Origin: Aquila chrysaetos chrysaetos
Taxonomy: Eukaryota > Chordata > Aves > Accipitriformes > Accipitridae
DNA length: 64,000 nt
Direction of reading: 5' to 3'
Assembly (NCBI RefSeq): GCF_900496995.4
Contig: NW_024470383.1
Span: 1 to 64,000, forward strand
Positions 33,037 to 64,000 of this stretch are shown here, piece after piece. Position 1 is the first letter of the stretch, and each line of letters begins with the position of its first letter. The position numbers and the translations under genes are program-made. Under the pieces are notes generated by a model. That model was not told the DNA's origin and did not search any database. It saw nothing but the letters and a program-made list of their open reading frames with translations.

Positions 33037-35433
<2,397 letters not shown>

Positions 35434-35895
35434 GGCCGTTCCTCGTTGCCCGCCGGGCCAGGCCCCGCCGTTGCCTTCGCCCGCCGGGCCCGGCCCGGCC
35501 CGGCCCCGCCGCCGCCACCGCCACTACTACTGCCGGGCCCGGTGGGTGTTAACCCCGCCCCCTAGCAACCGCTCAACCAATCGCTACCTCGTCTTCGCTC
35601 GCCCCAGCAACCAAGCTCCGCCCCCTCCGCATCAACCCTCCGCCCTTAGCAACCGGCATCCCGCTCCGCCGCGAAGCATGATGGGAAGCATCCCCCCCCC
35701 CCCGCCACCGCAGAGCATGCCGGGATATATCCCCCCCACCACACGCCCCACCCAGAAGGGCCGCCATTTTGAGGTCCCGGCGGCCATTTTGCGGACCCGG
35801 CGGCCATTTTGGCGGCACGACCGCCATCTTGTCAGCACCGTGCCTCAGTTTCCCCGAGTGGAAGAAGGCGAGTCTTTAGCGGGGACTGTAGACGC
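35434..35895 (-). promoter_or_regulatory. ATAT1: ATAT1 promoter with YY1-like sites at 20-bp period
   Basis: CpG-rich spacer between the ATAT1 start and the MRPS18B end. Four YY1-type sites (CAAGATGGCGG or CAAAATGGCCG on the ATAT1 strand) have their CCAT core at 35764, 35784, 35804 and 35824, exactly 20 bp apart. CpG boxes and CATGATGGGAAGCAT and GCATGCCGGGA motifs lie between these and the gene. Confidence 0.55.
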
Positions 35896-42854: not shown

Positions 42855-45800
42855 ATGGGCTCGGGCCCCATCGACCCCAAGGAGCTCCTCAAGGGCTTGG
42901 ACTGCTTCCTGGGCCGCGATGGCGAGGTCAAGAGCATGGAGGGCATCACCAAAATCTTCAAGTGAGTCCCCCAAAATGTCCCCACGTGTGTCCCCCCCCA
43001 GTGTCACCGTGACACGGGGCGGGGTGTGTCTGACACGTTATTTGTCATTAACTAGCTTAATGAAGGACTCGCAGAAGATGGTGAGTCGCTGCATCTACCT
43101 GAATATCTTGCTGCAGACGCGGGCGCAGGACATCCTGGCTAAGTAAGAGCAGTGAGGGGGGTCGGGGCATTCAGGGGGAGCAGGAATTGGGGGGGTTTAC
43201 CCCGTTCTGGCTGGATCCTGACAGTTTTTCCCTCTTTTTTCCCTAGATTTATCCGGATTGGGGGTTACAAGCTGCTCAATACGTGGCTCACCAGTTCCAA
43301 AGCCTCCAACAACGTACCCTTCCTGCAGCAGATCCTTCTCACACTGCAGCACCTGCCCCTCACCGTCGACCACCTCAAACAGGTCGGGGTGGCCTCCGGG
43401 TCATACCCCCCCCCCAGTGGCTTTTGTGTCCCTTGGTGGCTTTTGTCACCCCCCAGGGTGGCTTTAGTTGCTCTCAGGTGGCTTTTGTGTCCCCCAAGGT
43501 GAATTTTGTCTCCCTTGGGTGGCTTTAGTCTCTCCTGGGTGGCTTTTTGGTCCCCCCCAGGTGGCTTTTGGGTCCTCCAGTTGGCTTTTGTCCATCCCCC
43601 CCCCAAGATGGCTTTGTGTCCCTGGGGTGGTTTTTGTGTCATCCCGCACGCTGCCACTCACCTCATATCTCTATCTCTTCCAGAACAACACAGCCAAGCT
43701 GGTGAAGCAGCTCAGCAAGTCAAGCGACGATGAAGGTGAACGCTCTCCCGCATGCCCCCAAAATCCCCTGAATCCCCCCCCCAAATCCCTCCTTTAACCC
43801 TTTCTTGCCCCGCAGAGCTGCGCCGCCTCGCCTCCATCCTCGTCAGTGACTGGATGGGTGTCATCCGCTCCCAGAGCAGCGCCCAGCCGACTGGTGAGCC
43901 CCGCTCTGTGCCCCCTGTTCTTCCCCCCCCCTCAATCCAACACCGCTGTCTCACCGTTTTCCCATCTTTTTTCCCCCAGAACGGGATAAAAAGAAGCGGA
44001 AAGAGGAAAACAAAAGCAAGACACCTGTCCAAGAGAAAACCCAAGAAGTCAAAACTGAGATTAAAGCCGAGGAGATGCCAGAGAAGAAGCGGGAGAAACC
44101 CAAATCCCTGCGCACTACCGCTCCCAGCCACGCCAAATTCCGCTCCACCGGTAATTCCCTCTCCATCCCGTGGGGCAATGGCAGGTTTTGGGGCTGTTTG
44201 GGGGGAATTTGAGGGGCTGTGCTCAGTTGTGGGATGCCTCAAGGGGACGCACTAATGATGTTCCCCACTCTCTGCTCCGAACAGGGCTGGAAATGGAGAC
44301 ACCTTCGTTAGTGCCCGTGAAGAAAATGAACTCTTCTTCAACTACTGATAAATACAATCTGAAACCGATGCCCATAAAGAGGCAAAAGTGAGTGTGGGGC
44401 TGCTCTTGAGGGGCTCGGATTGCTTTTGGGGGGCTCGAGAGTGCTTTTGAGTGTCTTGGGGCTGATTTGGGGGGGCTGTTGGGCTGTTTTGGGGGTCCTT
44501 GCTGGCATCTGACCTGCTTTTCCCCCCTTTCCTGCAGCATCTCCTCCCTTCCTGGAGATGTTCCTCTTGCAGAGAAGAAATACAAACCCCTGAACACGGC
44601 GCCCAATGCCACCAAGGAGATCAAAGTCAAGATCATCCCACCCCAGCGTGAGTAGGAGGGGACACCTGGGGGTCTTTTTGGGGGACAATTTAGGTGCCAT
44701 TTGGGGGAGAGTTTAGGTGCCTCTTTGGGGACCCTTGGCTGCCTTTTTGGGGACAATTAGTGGGGTTTTGGGTGACACCTCTCCTCCTTCTTGCAGCAAT
44801 GGAAGGACTTGGCTTCCTCGACGCCCTCAACTCTGCTCCCATCCCCGGCATTAAGATTAAGAAGAAGAAGAAGGTGTTGTCCCCCACAGCGGCCAAGGTG
44901 AGGAGGAGTCTCCCTGGATATCGGCATGCCCTCCTCAGATATTGGGGTCCTCTCCTTGTCTAGAGACCCTCCCCGCAATGATAACCACCCTCTTCTTTCC
45001 CCCCCCAGCCCAGCCCCTTCGAGGGGAAGCCAGCTCCCGAAACGAGCTCCGCCAAACCTTCTTCCCCGGAGCCCACCGCCTCTTCGGAGCCAATGGAGAC
45101 GGATCGACCTGGCACGCCGGTACCGGCTGTGGAAGTGCCAGAACCGATGGAGACTTGTAAGTTGGGGTGACCAGGAGGGGGAAAAGCACAGGTGTGGGGG
45201 GGGTTAAGGTGGGTGCTGAGCCCCCTCCGGTTCCTCCCGCAGGCTCGGCGGAGGTGAGCGGTGACACCAAAGCCATGGAAAACGCATCGGAAAGCGGCCA
45301 GCTCACTAAAAAAGGTCGGAAAAAGAAAACGGTGAGTTGGCCAGAGGAAAGCAAACTCCGTGAATACTTCTACTTCGAACTGGACGAGACTGAACGAGGT
45401 GAGCCCTGTTCCTTCCCTGTGTGTCCCCCGTCCCCTCCTTGGTGTCCCCAAGCTTTTGGGGGTGACGCTGTTGTCCCCCTCCCTCCCGGCAGTCAATGTC
45501 AACAAGATCAAGGATTTTGGGGAAGCAGCCAAGCGGGAGATGCTGATGGATCGCCATGCCTTCGAGACGGCCCGGCGCCTCAGCCACGACGCCATGGAGG
45601 AGAAGGTGCCCTGGGTTTATCCCAAACTCCTCGATCTCCCCGCTCCCCTCGTGGTGCCAGGCAGCGGCAGCCGGGAACGCTTCACTCAGGCCGAGAGAGA
45701 GAAGGGGATCTTGCAGGAGATCTTTCTGTCCAAGGAGAGGTGAGTAGATCCCTTGGGATCCCCTATCCCTGCCTTTGATACCAGACTCAGAACTGTGGAT

Positions 45801-48800: not shown

Positions 48801-51800
48801 GGTTCCCTGTGGGTTGGGGATGTGTGACATGTGTCCCCAACTGTCCCTGCAGGCTGGGGCACTGCCAGCGATGTGTCCCCTCTGCCAGGGGTCACATGGG
48901 GGGGGGGGGGGGGGGGGGCGATATTGGTGTCCCCTCAACTCGGGGACGTGCTTTAAGCACTGCTGGGGACCTGTCGTCCCTTTTCCCAGGGGTGACTCGG
49001 GTGTCCCCTGGGTTTGGGGACATGCTGGGGGAGACGCGGGGGGGACATTGGGGTCCCCTCAGCCTGGGGACCTGTCCCTTCTCTGGTTGGAGGTGACGTG
49101 GAGGGGGAGCTGCGTCCCCGCAGCCTGGGGACATGGCCTGGGTGCCACTGGAGACCCCGTGTCCCCCTCTGGGGTGACACTGGGGGGGTATTGGGTGTCC
49201 CTTTGTTTTGGAAACAAGATCTGGGGACAGTTGGGGACCCTGTGTCCCCCTCTGGGGTGACATGGGGGGTATGGGGGGCCCCCCTAATTTGGGGACAAGT
49301 TCTGGGTACTGTGGGGACGCTGTGTCCTATAGGGTGACACGTGGCAGGTGGTATCGAGGTCCCCTTAATTTGGGGACATTATCTGGGCACCGCTGGGGAC
49401 CCCGCGTCCTCTGGGGTGATACAGGGGACTTTTGGGGTCCCCTTAATTTGAGGACAAGCTCTGGGTGCTCCTGGGGACCCTGTGTCCTCCTCTGGGGTGA
49501 CACAGGCTTTTTGGGGGTCCCCTTGGTTTGGGGACACTTCCCGGGTGCTGCTGACGACCCCGTGTCCTCTGGGGTGGCACGGGGGGAGCAGGGGGCGGTA
49601 TTGGGGGTCCCCTTAATTTGGGGACAAGCTCTAGGTGCCCTTGGGGACCCAGTGTCTCCCTCGGGGGTGACACACAGGGGGTCCCTTTAAGTTGGGGGGG
49701 TCCCCTTAACTTGGGGGGACACGATATGCCCCTGGGGCGGGGCGGGGGGGGGCGGGTGTCCCTTTGAACTGGGGACACCCCCCTGCTTATGGCCACCCTT
49801 GGCGGGGGGGCACCAACCCCTCTCCTCTGCTTGGGCTGGGGGGGGAACGATGACTTGGGGGGGGGGCTCTGGGGGGGGCTGGAGGTCCCCCCCTTCACTA
49901 ACCTTCCCCCCCCCTTTTTCTTTGTCCCCCCCCAGTGCCCCACGGTTTGCTGGGCCCCGGCCCCATGGCCAACGGTTTCCCGCCCGGCCCCAAGGCCATG
50001 CAGCACTTCCCGCCGGGGGGGCCCATGCCAGGTAAGTGACACCGCGGGGGGGTCACGGGGACACCGGAGGTGACGCAGGGAAGGTGGGGGGGGGGGGGGG
50101 TTGTCGCCCGTATGCCCCCCCCTCGACTTCCTCACCCTCTTTCTTTCCCCCCACAGGACCCCACGGAGGAGGCGGGGGGGGACCCGGCCTCCCCCCAGGT
50201 CCGGGAATTCCAGGCGGCCCCCGACTTTTAGGGCCGCCCCCCCCTCAACGCGGCAACGCCGGCGGCGATTTTTGGGAAACGCCGGAAGGGGGGGGGGAAC
50301 CTCCGAGGCGGCCCCCACGGCGGCGGCGGCGGAGGCGGCGGCGGCGGCGGCATGCGCGGGGGGGGCCCCTTTCACCGCCCCCGAGGCCGTAGCGGCGCCG
50401 AACCCCCGTACCGATGCCGCGGCGGCGGCGGAGGCGGCGGCGGAGGGGGGGGGGCGCAACGGGGGCCCCCCAAATGGCGGCGGCGGCGGCGCAAGGGGGC
50501 CCCCCGGTAGCCACAGCGATCACGGCAGAGGCCACCCCGGCGACCACCCCCGGGGGCACGGCGGAGGCCACGGAGGAGGTAAATGCGGGGGGGGGAGGAG
50601 GGCCCCCCCCGGCGCCTCCCTCGCGAGGAGGGGGGGGCGGCGGGGCTTGCGGGGCGTGGCTGTGGGGCGGGCCCGGCCCCGGCTGGGAGGGGCCTGTGGG
50701 TGCCCCCTCCCCGCCCCCGCCCCCGCCCCCTTTTTTGCCCCGCTGGCGGGGGGGGGAGCCCCCCCCCCACCCCCTCCAACCCCTCGAGCCCCCCGGGCCC
50801 TGGGGCCGAGGCCCCGATTGGCGGCGGCCCCCCATGGGGCTCTAGGGACGGGGTGGGGGGGAGAGAGGACGGCCCTCCCCCGCGGCGGCCGCAGGGCGTG
50901 CTGGGAGCGAAGGGACACCCCCCCCCCCGGCCCCACGGCAGCTGTGGGGCAGGGGCACCGCGGCGTGCCGGGAGGCGGAGGGCGGCGCCGGGGGGGGGCG
51001 CCGGGGGGGGCTGGGAGAGAAGAGCGGCTCTAGGGCGACGGCGAGGCGTGCCGGGAGATAGAACTAGCGCTGGGGCGGGCGGCGAGGGCGTGCCGGGAGA
51101 GAAGAGCAGATCGAGGGCGACAGCGAGGCATGCTGGGAGTTAAGAGCAGCTCTAGGGTGACAGCGAGGCATGCTGGGAGTTAAGAGCAGCTCTAGGGCGA
51201 CAGCGAGGCATGCTGGGAGTTAAGAGCAGCTCTAGGGCGACAGCGAGGCATGCTGGGAGTTAAGAGCAGCTCTAGGGCGACAGCGAGGCATGCCGGGAGT
51301 TAAGAGCGGTTCTAGGGCGACAGCGAGGCATGCTGGGAGTTAAGAGCAGCTCTAGGGCGACAGCGAGGCATGCCGGGAGTTAAGAGCGGTTCTAGGGCGA
51401 CAGCGAGGCATGCTGGGAGTTAAGAGCAGCTCTAGGGCGACAGCGAGGCATGCTGGGAGTTAAGAGCAGCTCTAGGGCGACAGCGAGGCATGCTGGGAGT
51501 TAAGAGCAGCTCTAGGGCGACAGCGAGGCATGCCGGGAGTTAAGAGCGGTTCTAGGGCGACAGCGAGGCATGCCGGGAGTTAAGAGCGGTTCTAGGGCGA
51601 CAGCGAGGCATGCTGGGAGTTAAGAGCGGCTCTAGGGCGACAGCGAGGCATGCCGGGAGTTAAGAGCGGTTCTAGGGCGACAGCGAGGCATGCCGGGAGT
51701 TAAGAACGGCTCTAGGGCGACAGCGAGGCATGCTGGGAGTTAAGCTCTAGGAGCTCTAGGGCAGCAGCGAGGCATGCTGGGAGTTAAGAGCAGCTGTAGA

Positions 51801-52707
51801 GCAGGCAGCAAAGGGCATGCTGGGAGCTGCCTTGTCGCCCCACAGCTGCCCCACAGGACCCCACAGTGACAGGGCCAGGCCTGGGGTGTTCTGCCCCACG
51901 GCTGCCCCAGCTCCGGGGCAGGGCAAGGAAGAGCTCAGCAGCTGTGGGGCTGCCCCACGGCCGCGCACGGGGACCAGCCTAGCTCCTAAGGCAGGGCTCA
52001 GGTGCCGTGGGGGTCCGTCGCTGCCCCACGGCTGCGTAGAGGGACCAGCCCAGCCCCACGGCCAAGCGATAGGGCAGGGACTGGGGCGCTGTGGGGCTCA
52101 TAGCCGCCCCATAGATCGTCAGCCCCATAGCGGGGACAGCAGCACCAGCTATAGGGCAGGGAGCGGGGCACTGTGGGGCTCATCCCCATGGCCACAGCCA
52201 GCCCCGTAGATGCAGCTGAACGACAGCTATCACGGTGCCGTGGGGCTCCACCGCTGCCCCGTCGCAGGGGGGCCAGCCCCACAGCCCCACCCGCTCCCCA
52301 CCAGCTCTTAGGGCCAGACCAGTGGGGTTTGCCATGGGGCCCATAGCTGCCCCACAGCTGCCCCACTCACCCCCCCGTCCCCCAAACGCCCCCCCCCCCC
52401 CCCCCCGAGCGAGGCCGGGAGCTGACCCCACGTGTGTGCGTGTGTCCGTGTCCCCCCCCCCAACCTCCCCCTCCTCATTCCCCTTCCCGCCCTCCCTCCT
52501 TCCTTCTCCCAGAGCCGCCGCCGTGGGGCCGCCGTGGGGCCGGGGCGCCGGCGCCTGACGCGCCTTCCCCCCCCCCCCCCCCTTTTCTCTCACGCAGACA
52601 TGTCGAGCCGCGCCGTCTGTCGCCACTTCATGCTGAAGGGCAGCTGCAGGTACGAGAACAACTGTGCCTTCTACCACCCCGGCGTCAACGGGCCGCCCCT
52701 GCCGTAG
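42855..52707 (+). CDS. PPP1R10: PNUTS, PP1 nuclear targeting subunit (PPP1R10)
   Basis: PNUTS is the scaffold of the nuclear PP1-WDR82-TOX4 phosphatase that acts on RNA polymerase II and chromatin. Coding exons: 42855-42961, 43056-43142, 43247-43382, 43684-43735, 43816-43893, 43980-44150, 44285-44387, 44538-44647, 44797-44897, 45009-45156, 45243-45398, 45493-45739, 47015-47090, 47172-47372, 47535-47646, 49936-50031, 50157-50578, 52598-52707. The N-terminus [16 protein letters not shown] starts the TFIIS-N (LW) domain. The PP1 motif TVSW is followed by [15 protein letters not shown]. The Gly-rich RGG region is in the penultimate exon. The last exon encodes a CCCH finger (C-x8-C-x5-C-x3-H) ending GVNGPPLP. 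Two +1 slips, at G-runs 50288-50297 and 50445-50454, are needed to join the RGG frame to the finger; then about 836 aa (human 940). The histidine-rich repeats of mammalian PNUTS are shorter here. Confidence 0.94.
43385..43660. repeat. PPP1R10 intron 'GGTGGCTTTTGTGTCCCC' array
   Basis: About 10 units of about 24 bp after the exon ending 43382. Confidence 0.8.
45880..46910. repeat. PPP1R10 intron 'GGATCCAGAGCC' array
   Basis: Degenerate units of about 45-60 bp, 'GGAGCCCAGATCCTCTGGGA' and 'TCCAGAGCCTGGGGGGAGG', filling the intron after exon 45493-45739. Confidence 0.75.
47660..49720. repeat. PPP1R10 intron 'CTTGGCTTGGGGACA' array
   Basis: About 35 units of about 45-65 bp with 'CTTGGCTTGGGGACATGCT', 'GGGGACACTGTCCCCTGCC' and 'CAGGGATGTGGGG'. 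The composition shifts to 'CCCCTTAATTTGGGGACAAG' units after about 49220. Confidence 0.85.
51040..51835. repeat. 40-bp minisatellite of ZNF143/Staf-like sites
   Basis: Seventeen units, sixteen at an exact 40-bp period: GGCATG cores at 51128 and every 40 bp to 51728, then 51771. Each holds GGCATGCTGGGAGTTAAGAG (11 units) or GGCATGCCGGGAGTTAAGAG (6 units) and 'CTCTAGGGCGACAGCGA'. The reverse complement AACTCCCAGCATGCCTCG follows the ZNF143/Staf site. Two degenerate units precede the array and one follows (about 51817). It lies in the last intron of PPP1R10. Confidence 0.9.
51836..52590. other. Rest of PPP1R10 last intron
   Basis: Bases 51840-52350 are rich in 'CTGCCCCACGGCTGC' and 'CTGTGGGGCTCATAGCCGCC' repeats without a clean period. 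C-tracts and a CT-rich polypyrimidine stretch lead into the final acceptor. No gene is seen. Confidence 0.5.
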
Positions 52708-62183: not shown

Positions 62184-62630
62184 GGCCGGGCGCTTCTTAC
62201 TGCGCCTGCGCAGCCACAGACACTCGGCTAGAGCGTCGACCCGGTAGAGTCTCCGCTTCCGGTCCTCCACGGCACCGTCCCGAGTCGTTTCCGCTAGGGA
62301 TTGGTTCGCTGGCTCTCGGGTCCCGCCCACTGACTCCCTAATCGGGTCGGGAGGGTTCGTCCCTCCCCCTCAGGGGTGATTCTTCCTCCCATTGGCTCTC
62401 ACGGGTTCGTCCCGCCCCTTTCTGGCGTAACTTTTTCTCCCATTGGCTTCCGCTGGTTCGTCCTTCCCCGCGAGGTGATGTTTCCCGCCGTTGGCTCTCC
62501 CGCCGATTCGTCCCTCCCCCTTTCTGAGGCGCTCTTCCCTCCCATTGGCTCCTCCTCCTCCCCTCTCCCCCCGCCTTCCACCCTTCCTATTGGTCGCGGC
62601 CGGCCCCGCCCCGTCACGTGATCTCCCGTC
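62184..62630. promoter_or_regulatory. ABCF1/GNL1 bidirectional promoter with CCAAT repeats
   Basis: 447 bp between divergent start codons. ATTGG (CCAAT on -) lies at 62300, 62391, 62442, 62544 and 62589, and a decayed GTTGG at 62490. From 62345 to 62560 these sit in four tandem units of about 51 bp ('GGTTCGTCC...CCCATTGGCTC'). An E-box CACGTG lies at 62615-62620, just before GNL1, and an NRF1-like TGCGCCTGCGCA near 62202. No PRR3 gene is present. Confidence 0.7.
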
Positions 62631-64000
62631 ATGCCCCGCAAGCGGCCGTTCAGCGCGAAGCGGAAGAAGCAGCAGCTCCGCGACCGGCGCGAACGGAAGC
62701 GGGGCGGTGAGCGGGGACCGGGCCGAGGGAGAACCGCGGCGGCCGGCTGGCCCCTGACCCCCGTTTTCTTTGTCCGTAGATGCCCCGACAGGGCCGGACT
62801 CCGGCCCAGGCAGCCGTAGCGGGAGCCGGGAGCGGGGAAACGACGCGGTCCCAGTTGAAACGGGAGATCCGGTTCCCCCTCCCCGCCGCCATGATCCCGG
62901 CAGGTAACCGGGAAGGATGGAAGGGAGAGGGCGGGTTTGGTGTGCGGTTCGAGGGAACCCGGGTGGGTGAGTGAGGGGATCTGGGCGTCTATGTGAGGCT
63001 GCGGGTATCTGGCAGGTTCCGGCTGCAGCTGGGGGGGGCCGCGGGCCGAGGCCTTGGCGCGACGCCGGCGCCGGGCCCAGGAGGAGCTGCTGGAGCTGCT
63101 GCCCGAGACCGCCCTTGAGCTGGACACCGACACCATCTACGGCCCTGGTGAGGGGCAGATACCGCGGGGGAAGGGGGACAAATACACTGGGGGGGGGGGG
63201 GGGGGGGGGCAAGTAAGCAAAGAAGGGGGGGTAAGCAGCTTGGAGGGGGAGCAATTAAGTGCTGGGGGCTGTAACTAACAACTAGGGGAGGGGGAATTGC
63301 CCTGGGAGAGGGTGTAATTAATCATCTAGGGGTAAAATGGCTTGGGGTGGGGTTAATAATGGTCAAGGGGGGCCTGAGCGGGGGCAATTAGGTATGGGGG
63401 GTGGGGGATGTGGTGCCTGGGAGGGGTAAATGGCCTGGGGGGGGGCCAAATAACCCGCCGAGGGGGGTCCTGGGGCTGGTGGGATCCAGGCTGCTGGGTG
63501 CCAGGGCTGGATTTCCCACGTCGGCCGCCCTGGAGTTTCGCCATGAGCCCGGACGAGCTGCGGGTGAGGGAAGAAGCGGCTTTCGGCACCTTCCTCCGAG
63601 CTCTCCGGGAGGGCCAGCGCCCCGGGGGGGCCGAGGAGGGGGGCACCGACGGTGACGATGATGGTGGGGACGTGGCTCCCTTTGAGCACAATCTGGAGGT
63701 GAGAGGGGACGTGACCGGGCGGGGGTTGGGGGGGGTTTAGGGGACAAAGGGGGTCACTGTGTCCCTTCCCAGACATGGCGACAGCTCTGGCGGGTGCTGG
63801 AAATGTCTGACATCATCCTCCTCATCACCGATGCCAGGCACCCGGTGAGTGAAGGAGGGATCCAGGTGTCTGGGGTGGGATCCAGGCATTTGGGGTGCTG
63901 CTGAGCCCTCCCCCACCCCCTACTCTGTCATTGGTGTCGTCTGTCCCCCCCGCCAGGCGCTGAACGTGCCGCCGGCGTTGGCCACCCACGTGACGCGGGA
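62631..64000 (+). CDS. GNL1: GNL1 GTPase, 5' part, cut by window end
   Basis: GNL1 is a circularly permuted YlqF/YawG-family GTPase. Exons: 62631-62706, 62780-62903, 63016-63147, 63505-63698 (or from 63490), 63773-63844, 63957 to beyond 64000. The N-terminus MPRKRPFSAKRKKQQLRDRR is basic. Other recalled human blocks are SRSGSRERG, AQEELLELLP, LDFPRRPPWS, FEHNLETWRQLWRVLEMSDI and LLITDARHP, the start of the G domain; the G motifs themselves lie beyond the window. Exon 3 is 132 nt where splice phases demand 2 mod 3. One extra G in the 8-G run 63031-63038 explains it and restores the RAEALARRRRRAQEE frame. Confidence 0.93.

Follow-up and report, generated by a model that had tools for sequence, protein, structure and literature searches.

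A tandem array of 40-bp units lies in the last intron of PPP1R10 in Aquila chrysaetos chrysaetos, within the first 64,000 nucleotides of contig NW_024470383.1 (assembly GCF_900496995.4; hereafter the window). We interpret it as an intronic GC-rich minisatellite that probably grew by local tandem duplication and most likely has no selected function. Each of its seventeen named units carries a close match to the Staf/ZNF143-binding site (SBS). An initial sequence-only reading had described the array as ZNF143/Staf-like sites and had considered that it might act as a strong looping or internal promoter element, or merely be a minisatellite that captured a site. Its observation as a whole was confirmed, and the minisatellite alternative fits best, the repeat being a local tandem array confined to the intron.

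Structure of the array

The word GGC[AG]TGC[TC]GGGAG was found 22 times on the + strand of the 64-kb window, all between 50895 and 51826, and not once on the − strand. The Staf/SBS-like site of each regular unit reads on the − strand. Units with the longer word GGCATGC(T/C)GGGAGTT number exactly 17, as first reported, and the division into 11 CTGGG and 6 CCGGG variants was also exact. The 40-bp period holds for 15 of these units (mean pairwise identity 95.5%, minimum 90%) and fails for the 16th (44 bp) and 17th (43 bp). The two variants had been said to co-vary with a following GCAGC or GCGGT, which is true of 13 of the 15 regular units, those at 51607 and 51687 being intermediates. No G-quadruplex (G4) pattern was detected within 51127-51810.

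Tandem Repeats Finder (TRF) placed the array at 51010-51826 with a period of 40 and 20.2 copies, the top score of 321 rows in the window. The extent originally proposed (51040-51835) thus captured the array but missed its diverged first unit. The placement inside the PPP1R10 last intron was upheld, the array staying within 50579-52597. At the 5′ edge, the units at 51045 and 51087 carry CpG-rich GGCGTGCCGGGAG cores and the core of the 51005 unit is broken; at the 3′ edge, homology to the unit ends after the core at 51814. Further upstream, the isolated cores at 50895 and 50962 are possibly remnants of additional units, with local similarity scores of 32 near 50800-50919 (shuffle maximum 25) and 33 near 50900-51019 (shuffle maximum 33).

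Proposed local growth by tandem duplication

We propose that the array grew by local tandem duplication, through replication slippage or meiotic conversion, from a founding segment that would have borne a Staf/ZNF143-like core of 13-18 bp. Since the array starts and ends near cores, these may have served as anchors for the duplication. A few variant units would have spread by conversion or unequal exchange, which would account for the two co-varying classes, CTGGG with GCAGC and CCGGG with GCGGT.

The whole assembly (1,233,704,830 bases in 144 contigs) was searched with 120 bases of the array. No second copy of the array was found in this 1.23-Gb genome by a search that skips simple repeats and common words: ten of ten matches fell in the array itself, which argues for local growth. 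An origin from an exon was also considered and rejected, as BLAST searches of the remaining window with the main and 5′-edge units revealed no exon source (best E values 0.069, in the ATAT1 5′ cluster and mainly over the core, and 0.24, at 62526-62543).

The array closely resembles the sequence stuttering of PMC12954441, the available text of which describes imperfect tandem blocks in the introns of genes on chicken dot chromosomes; of the introns that could be assessed on these chromosomes, 86% vary in length. Tandem-repeat introns in GC-rich avian genes are also treated in PMC6792250. Like those blocks, it consists of imperfect tandem copies of tens of bases, of local origin and in one intron, and its gene region is repeat-dense, GC-rich and on a small contig (459,769 bp). 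TRF arrays cover 43% of the PPP1R10 last intron and 31.7% of the window (98 merged arrays, 24 of them longer than 300 bp). The regular units, 90-100% identical, fall within the 20% edit distance from consensus used in the example given there, some edge units being more diverged. Unlike sequence stuttering as presented in that text, the array is unusually regular, holds a recognised factor-binding core and has no exon source in the window.

Match to the Staf/ZNF143 consensus

Sites were scored against the 18-position Staf consensus YWCCCRNMATSCMYYRCR printed in PMC5006282, so that scores refer to IUPAC consensus strings rather than to a measured ZNF143 position matrix. The proposed Staf/SBS likeness proved real and specific, with 17/18 in 17 units, above shuffle expectation. 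The window contains 25 sites with a score of 17/18 or higher: the 17 of the array, one decayed 5′ unit (50890) and seven outside, of which six lie at the ATAT1 5′ end and one at the putative GNL1 start codon; there were none elsewhere in the window. Block-wise shuffling of the window minus the array gave a mean of 0.63 and a maximum of 3 such sites in 100 shuffles, against the seven observed, and a shuffled 40-bp unit reached 17/18 in 3 of 20,000 trials. The seventeen copies count as one event, not seventeen, and we estimate that the match is less unusual if any of several hundred motifs could have been thought of. Besides YWCCCRNMATSCMYYRCR, the strings scored included ATTTCCCAGVAKSCY and RACTACAA. 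Twenty other consensus strings (CTCF, NRF1, YY1, p53 and others) gave no full match to the array unit, p53 reaching 9/10 for a half-site and 14/20 for a full site.

Part of the match probably arose by decay. Six positions separate the 5′ edge unit from the main unit, and four of these differences are CpG transitions (CpG to TpG/CpA; binomial 0.0013 if all changes are equally likely). Taking the CpG form as older, CpG decay of a core of the 51045 type would raise its Staf score from 16/18 to 17/18, and conversion of GGCGTGCCGGGAG into GGCATGCTGGGAG by this route is a probable source of part of the match, to judge from the 5′ edge. As the 3′ edge units are already in the decayed form, this polarity can only be inferred.

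Absence of the THAP11 half

The word GGCATGCYGGGAGTT occurs 36 times genome-wide, 17 times in the array and 19 times elsewhere, and its reversed control 0 times. Fourteen of the 19 other copies have the ACTAC half, compared with 0 of the 17 array units, which makes the array SBS2-like. Directly 5′ of SBS, where SBS1/M4 has ACTACA (ACTAYRNNNCCCR), the array reads CTCTTAACTCCC, and M4 scores no higher than 9/13 at any position of the unit. Identity with a THAP11 site or SBS1 (M4) was rejected on both grounds, and the earlier likening to the ZNF143/THAP11 site is not supported for the ACTACA (THAP11) half, which is missing from every unit. Elsewhere, 12 of the 19 copies combine ACTAC with CpG-rich surroundings, contexts that mark GGCATGCYGGGAGTT as a genuine promoter-like word of the genome at large. 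The array is like the Staf/ZNF143 SBS in its score against the consensus and in sharing its 15-mer with ACTAC-type sites of CpG-rich DNA, and unlike SBS1/M4 in lacking ACTACA, in being intronic, in its 17 copies about 40 bp apart and in the absence of TGGGA from six of them.

TGGGA is given in the available text of PMC11118474 as the ZNF143 core, contacted by zinc fingers 5-6. It is present in 11 of the 17 units; the other six (B units) read CGGGA. The corresponding CCCGG form was found in five of the 19 other genomic copies of GGCATGCYGGGAGTT, all five with ACTAC. Together with a genomic match described below, this keeps the B units as candidates for binding.

Weighing function against repeat growth

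Several observations weigh against a purely incidental match in a repeat without function. All 17 named units depart from the Staf consensus at the last position only. Just 5 of 1000 column-permuted pseudo-motifs reached any of 38 arrays of at least 150 bp, so that the match is unusual for one named motif. Within about 400 bp of 14 of the 19 other copies of GGCATGCYGGGAGTT, CpG observed/expected (o/e) is 0.6 or higher, and the array itself, with a CpG o/e of 0.78 against 0.44 for the window, is not strongly CpG-depleted. Lastly, an ACTAC-type site at a CpG-rich locus (L026) contains exactly the 20-mer AACTCCCGGCATGCCTCGCT that the six B units have, and carries the array's base at the mismatch position, so that binding need not be lost through CCCGG or through the last-base mismatch.

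The alternative that best survives, although we consider it improbable, is that of a homotypic cluster of functional ZNF143 (SBS2) sites. With ZNF143 bound to many units, the cluster would drive a promoter, internal or antisense, or serve PPP1R10 and neighbouring genes as an intronic enhancer. It would account for 17 sites at 17/18 in a window where such sites are otherwise restricted to the ATAT1 5′ end and the putative GNL1 start; full-SBS1 tandem arrays exist in promoter-like DNA elsewhere in the genome, and sequence tolerance beyond TGGGA is wide according to the available text of PMC11118474. Such a cluster would, however, have the ACTAC half in none of its 17 units and would have lost TGGGA in six, and it would sit in the last intron, with more than 7 kb between it and the upstream PPP1R10 exon at 43221-43394. 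The single consensus mismatch also argues against binding: it falls in the 3′ GCG triplet, mutation of which (to TAC) weakens Staf action, as reported in the accessible part of PMC5006282.

Nor did the cores appear significantly conserved. Among five edge units, 2 of 65 core positions had changed, compared with 15 of 135 in the spacer (p=0.06), in a count that left out units 50895, 50962 and 51814, which had been found by their cores. The reference was drawn partly from the counted edge units, which lowers the spacer count and makes the test weak; of the 40 circular 13-bp windows, 11 (one of them the core) show at most two changes. Core conservation was thus rejected as a sign of selection. 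In open chromatin, ZNF143 may bind the array weakly, its units serving as SBS2-type sites; we regard this putative binding as a testable chance beside what is mainly ordinary repeat growth.

The suggestion that a phased array could act in looping is unlikely. The available text of PMC11687419 rules out ZNF143 as a general looping factor in mouse and human cells and blames antibody cross-reactivity with CTCF, a result which disfavours a looping role for the array and on which we rejected looping as its default reading. The interpretation first given is thus supported in part: for the Staf likeness, the intronic position and the minisatellite alternative, and not for the THAP11 half or looping.

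By analogy, the array could be a silenced or decoy element, attracting repression of the MORC3/DAXX/H3.3 type or soaking up ZNF143 without regulating a gene; we hold this to be very unlikely. Like the repeats restricted by MORC3 in PMC13373173, which contain up to 61 homotypic motifs and for which the effect tracks motif number, the array is a tandem repeat with many copies of one motif. The clusters in that study, as far as its accessible text goes, concern SPI/ETS, AP-1 and SP/KLF motifs in human cells and come with functional proof, and ZNF143 is mentioned 0 times in that paper. An equally slight prospect is action at the RNA level, in which hairpins formed by the transcribed intron would influence how the last exon is spliced, the Staf match being incidental. 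When the tripled + strand unit was compared with 400 tripled shuffled units, only 2.5% of the latter folded equally well, and z was -3.55 relative to ordinary shuffles, but the − strand is unremarkable (9.5%) and the window gave 0 Rfam matches at the gathering threshold.

Staf-bearing repeats elsewhere in the genome

The exact SBS1 pattern ACTACANYTCCCAGCATGC was counted 60 times in the genome, at 46 places (both lower bounds), with 0 for the reversed control. At least two sites within 100 bp were present at nine of the 46 places, so the earlier statement that such sites normally occur singly may be too strong, although seven of these nine places belong to one multi-copy family. This promoter-like family (loci L027-L036, on contigs C90, C34, C52 and C2) has 61-62-bp units, each with a complete ACTACAGCTCCCAGCATGC, and between one and five units per locus. 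The unit is doubled at four C34 loci; C52 begins with three or more copies, C90 ends with four or more, and C90:692762 has five. Of the five C2 loci listed near 6.5-6.8 Mb, the two that were read each have a single exact site, as does C90:679853, with degraded further units behind it. These arrays indicate that tandem growth of Staf-bearing segments has happened more than once in this genome.

The PPP1R10 array is like this family in the tandem growth of a unit holding GGCATGCTGGGAG, and unlike it in that the family units, one to five per locus, have the full ACTACA half and, at several loci, CGGCCATGTTG downstream. We take CGGCCATGTTG to be YY1-like; a possible splice donor, recognised by eye, also lies downstream of the SBS1 units at several of these loci. 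The family was not found by the genome search with array DNA, which skips simple repeats and common words. Beside one single-unit SBS1 copy, at about 2770-3690 of L035 on the − strand, we observed by eye retroviral-looking reading frames. Separately, ACTACA-type sites form inverted pairs on opposite strands at C3:78629255 and C7:4103334 (L038 963-1033; L037), with starts 66 and 64 bp apart. Among the matches listed in the open-licence literature, no title or abstract start described a ZNF143-site minisatellite.

Gene context and other sites in the window

The gene was named from the translation of 43143-43499, which matched PPP1R10 chains with an E value of 3.9e-21, and the ends of its last intron were set from splice signals and the frame joining G|AC before ATG (Table 1). 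Two further PPP1R10 pieces gave one irrelevant PDB match (45336-45740) and none (45336-45413). Among nine window translations searched against Pfam, the CCCH exon alone exceeded the cut-off; Mec-17 stayed below it (20.1 against 27 bits) and the remaining seven had no match. Neighbouring genes are ATAT1 (E 2.6e-5; no NCBIfam match for the piece searched), ABCF1 (E 3.7e-11) and, weakly, MRPS18B (E 0.0026). A further neighbour, judged by its protein sequence, is presumably GNL1.

Table 1. Coordinates of the array and of the PPP1R10 features around it.
Feature	Position in window	Strand	Details
PPP1R10 exon used to name the gene	43221-43394	+	residues 27-84 of the 43143-43499 translation
PPP1R10 last intron	50579-52597	+	GT 50579-50580, AG 52596-52597; ends inferred
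Two isolated decayed cores (50895, 50962)	50887-51004	+	unit similarity weak
5′ edge, three diverged units (51005, 51045, 51087)	51005-51126	+	
Regular tandem units, n=15, each exactly 40 bp	51127-51726	+	90-100% pairwise identity
3′ edge, units at 51727 (44 bp) and 51771 (43 bp), last core 51814	51727-51826	+	
PPP1R10 last coding exon, 35 residues, zf-CCCH, stop included	52598-52707	+	PF00642, E 1.8e-7

The ATAT1 5′ end (35062-35726) contains six sites scoring 17-18/18 against the Staf consensus and one scoring 16/18. Four of them sit in a 27-bp repeat with spacings of 78, 72 and 31, and CpG o/e is 0.18 over 35040-35320 and 0.91 over 35320-35760. The flanks of the ATAT1 sites show only a modest resemblance to those of the array (of nine sites, the best has an uncorrected p of 0.011). 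At 62623-62640, an 18/18 match overlaps the putative GNL1 start codon and may for this reason reflect coding constraint. Between ABCF1 and this start, another tandem repeat, with a unit of roughly 51 bp, occupies 62353-62551 in four diverged copies, three of them carrying an inverted CCAAT box (ATTGGC), a promoter word.

Significance of the array

If the array is unbound, it provides a caution: tandem growth can make a single match, whether due to chance or to decay, look like seventeen sites. A broader proposal, to our minds improbable, is that tandem-duplication instability repeatedly multiplies ZNF143/Staf sites, as in the PPP1R10 array, the ATAT1 core cluster and the 62-bp SBS1 family on small contigs, and that this would turn single promoter sites into dense homotypic clusters occupied by ZNF143, with new start sites or gene buffering as the outcome. 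If it is bound, the array would act as a natural titration series of THAP11-free homotypic ZNF143 clusters that mixes two core variants, and would be an example of intron instability writing regulatory sequence.

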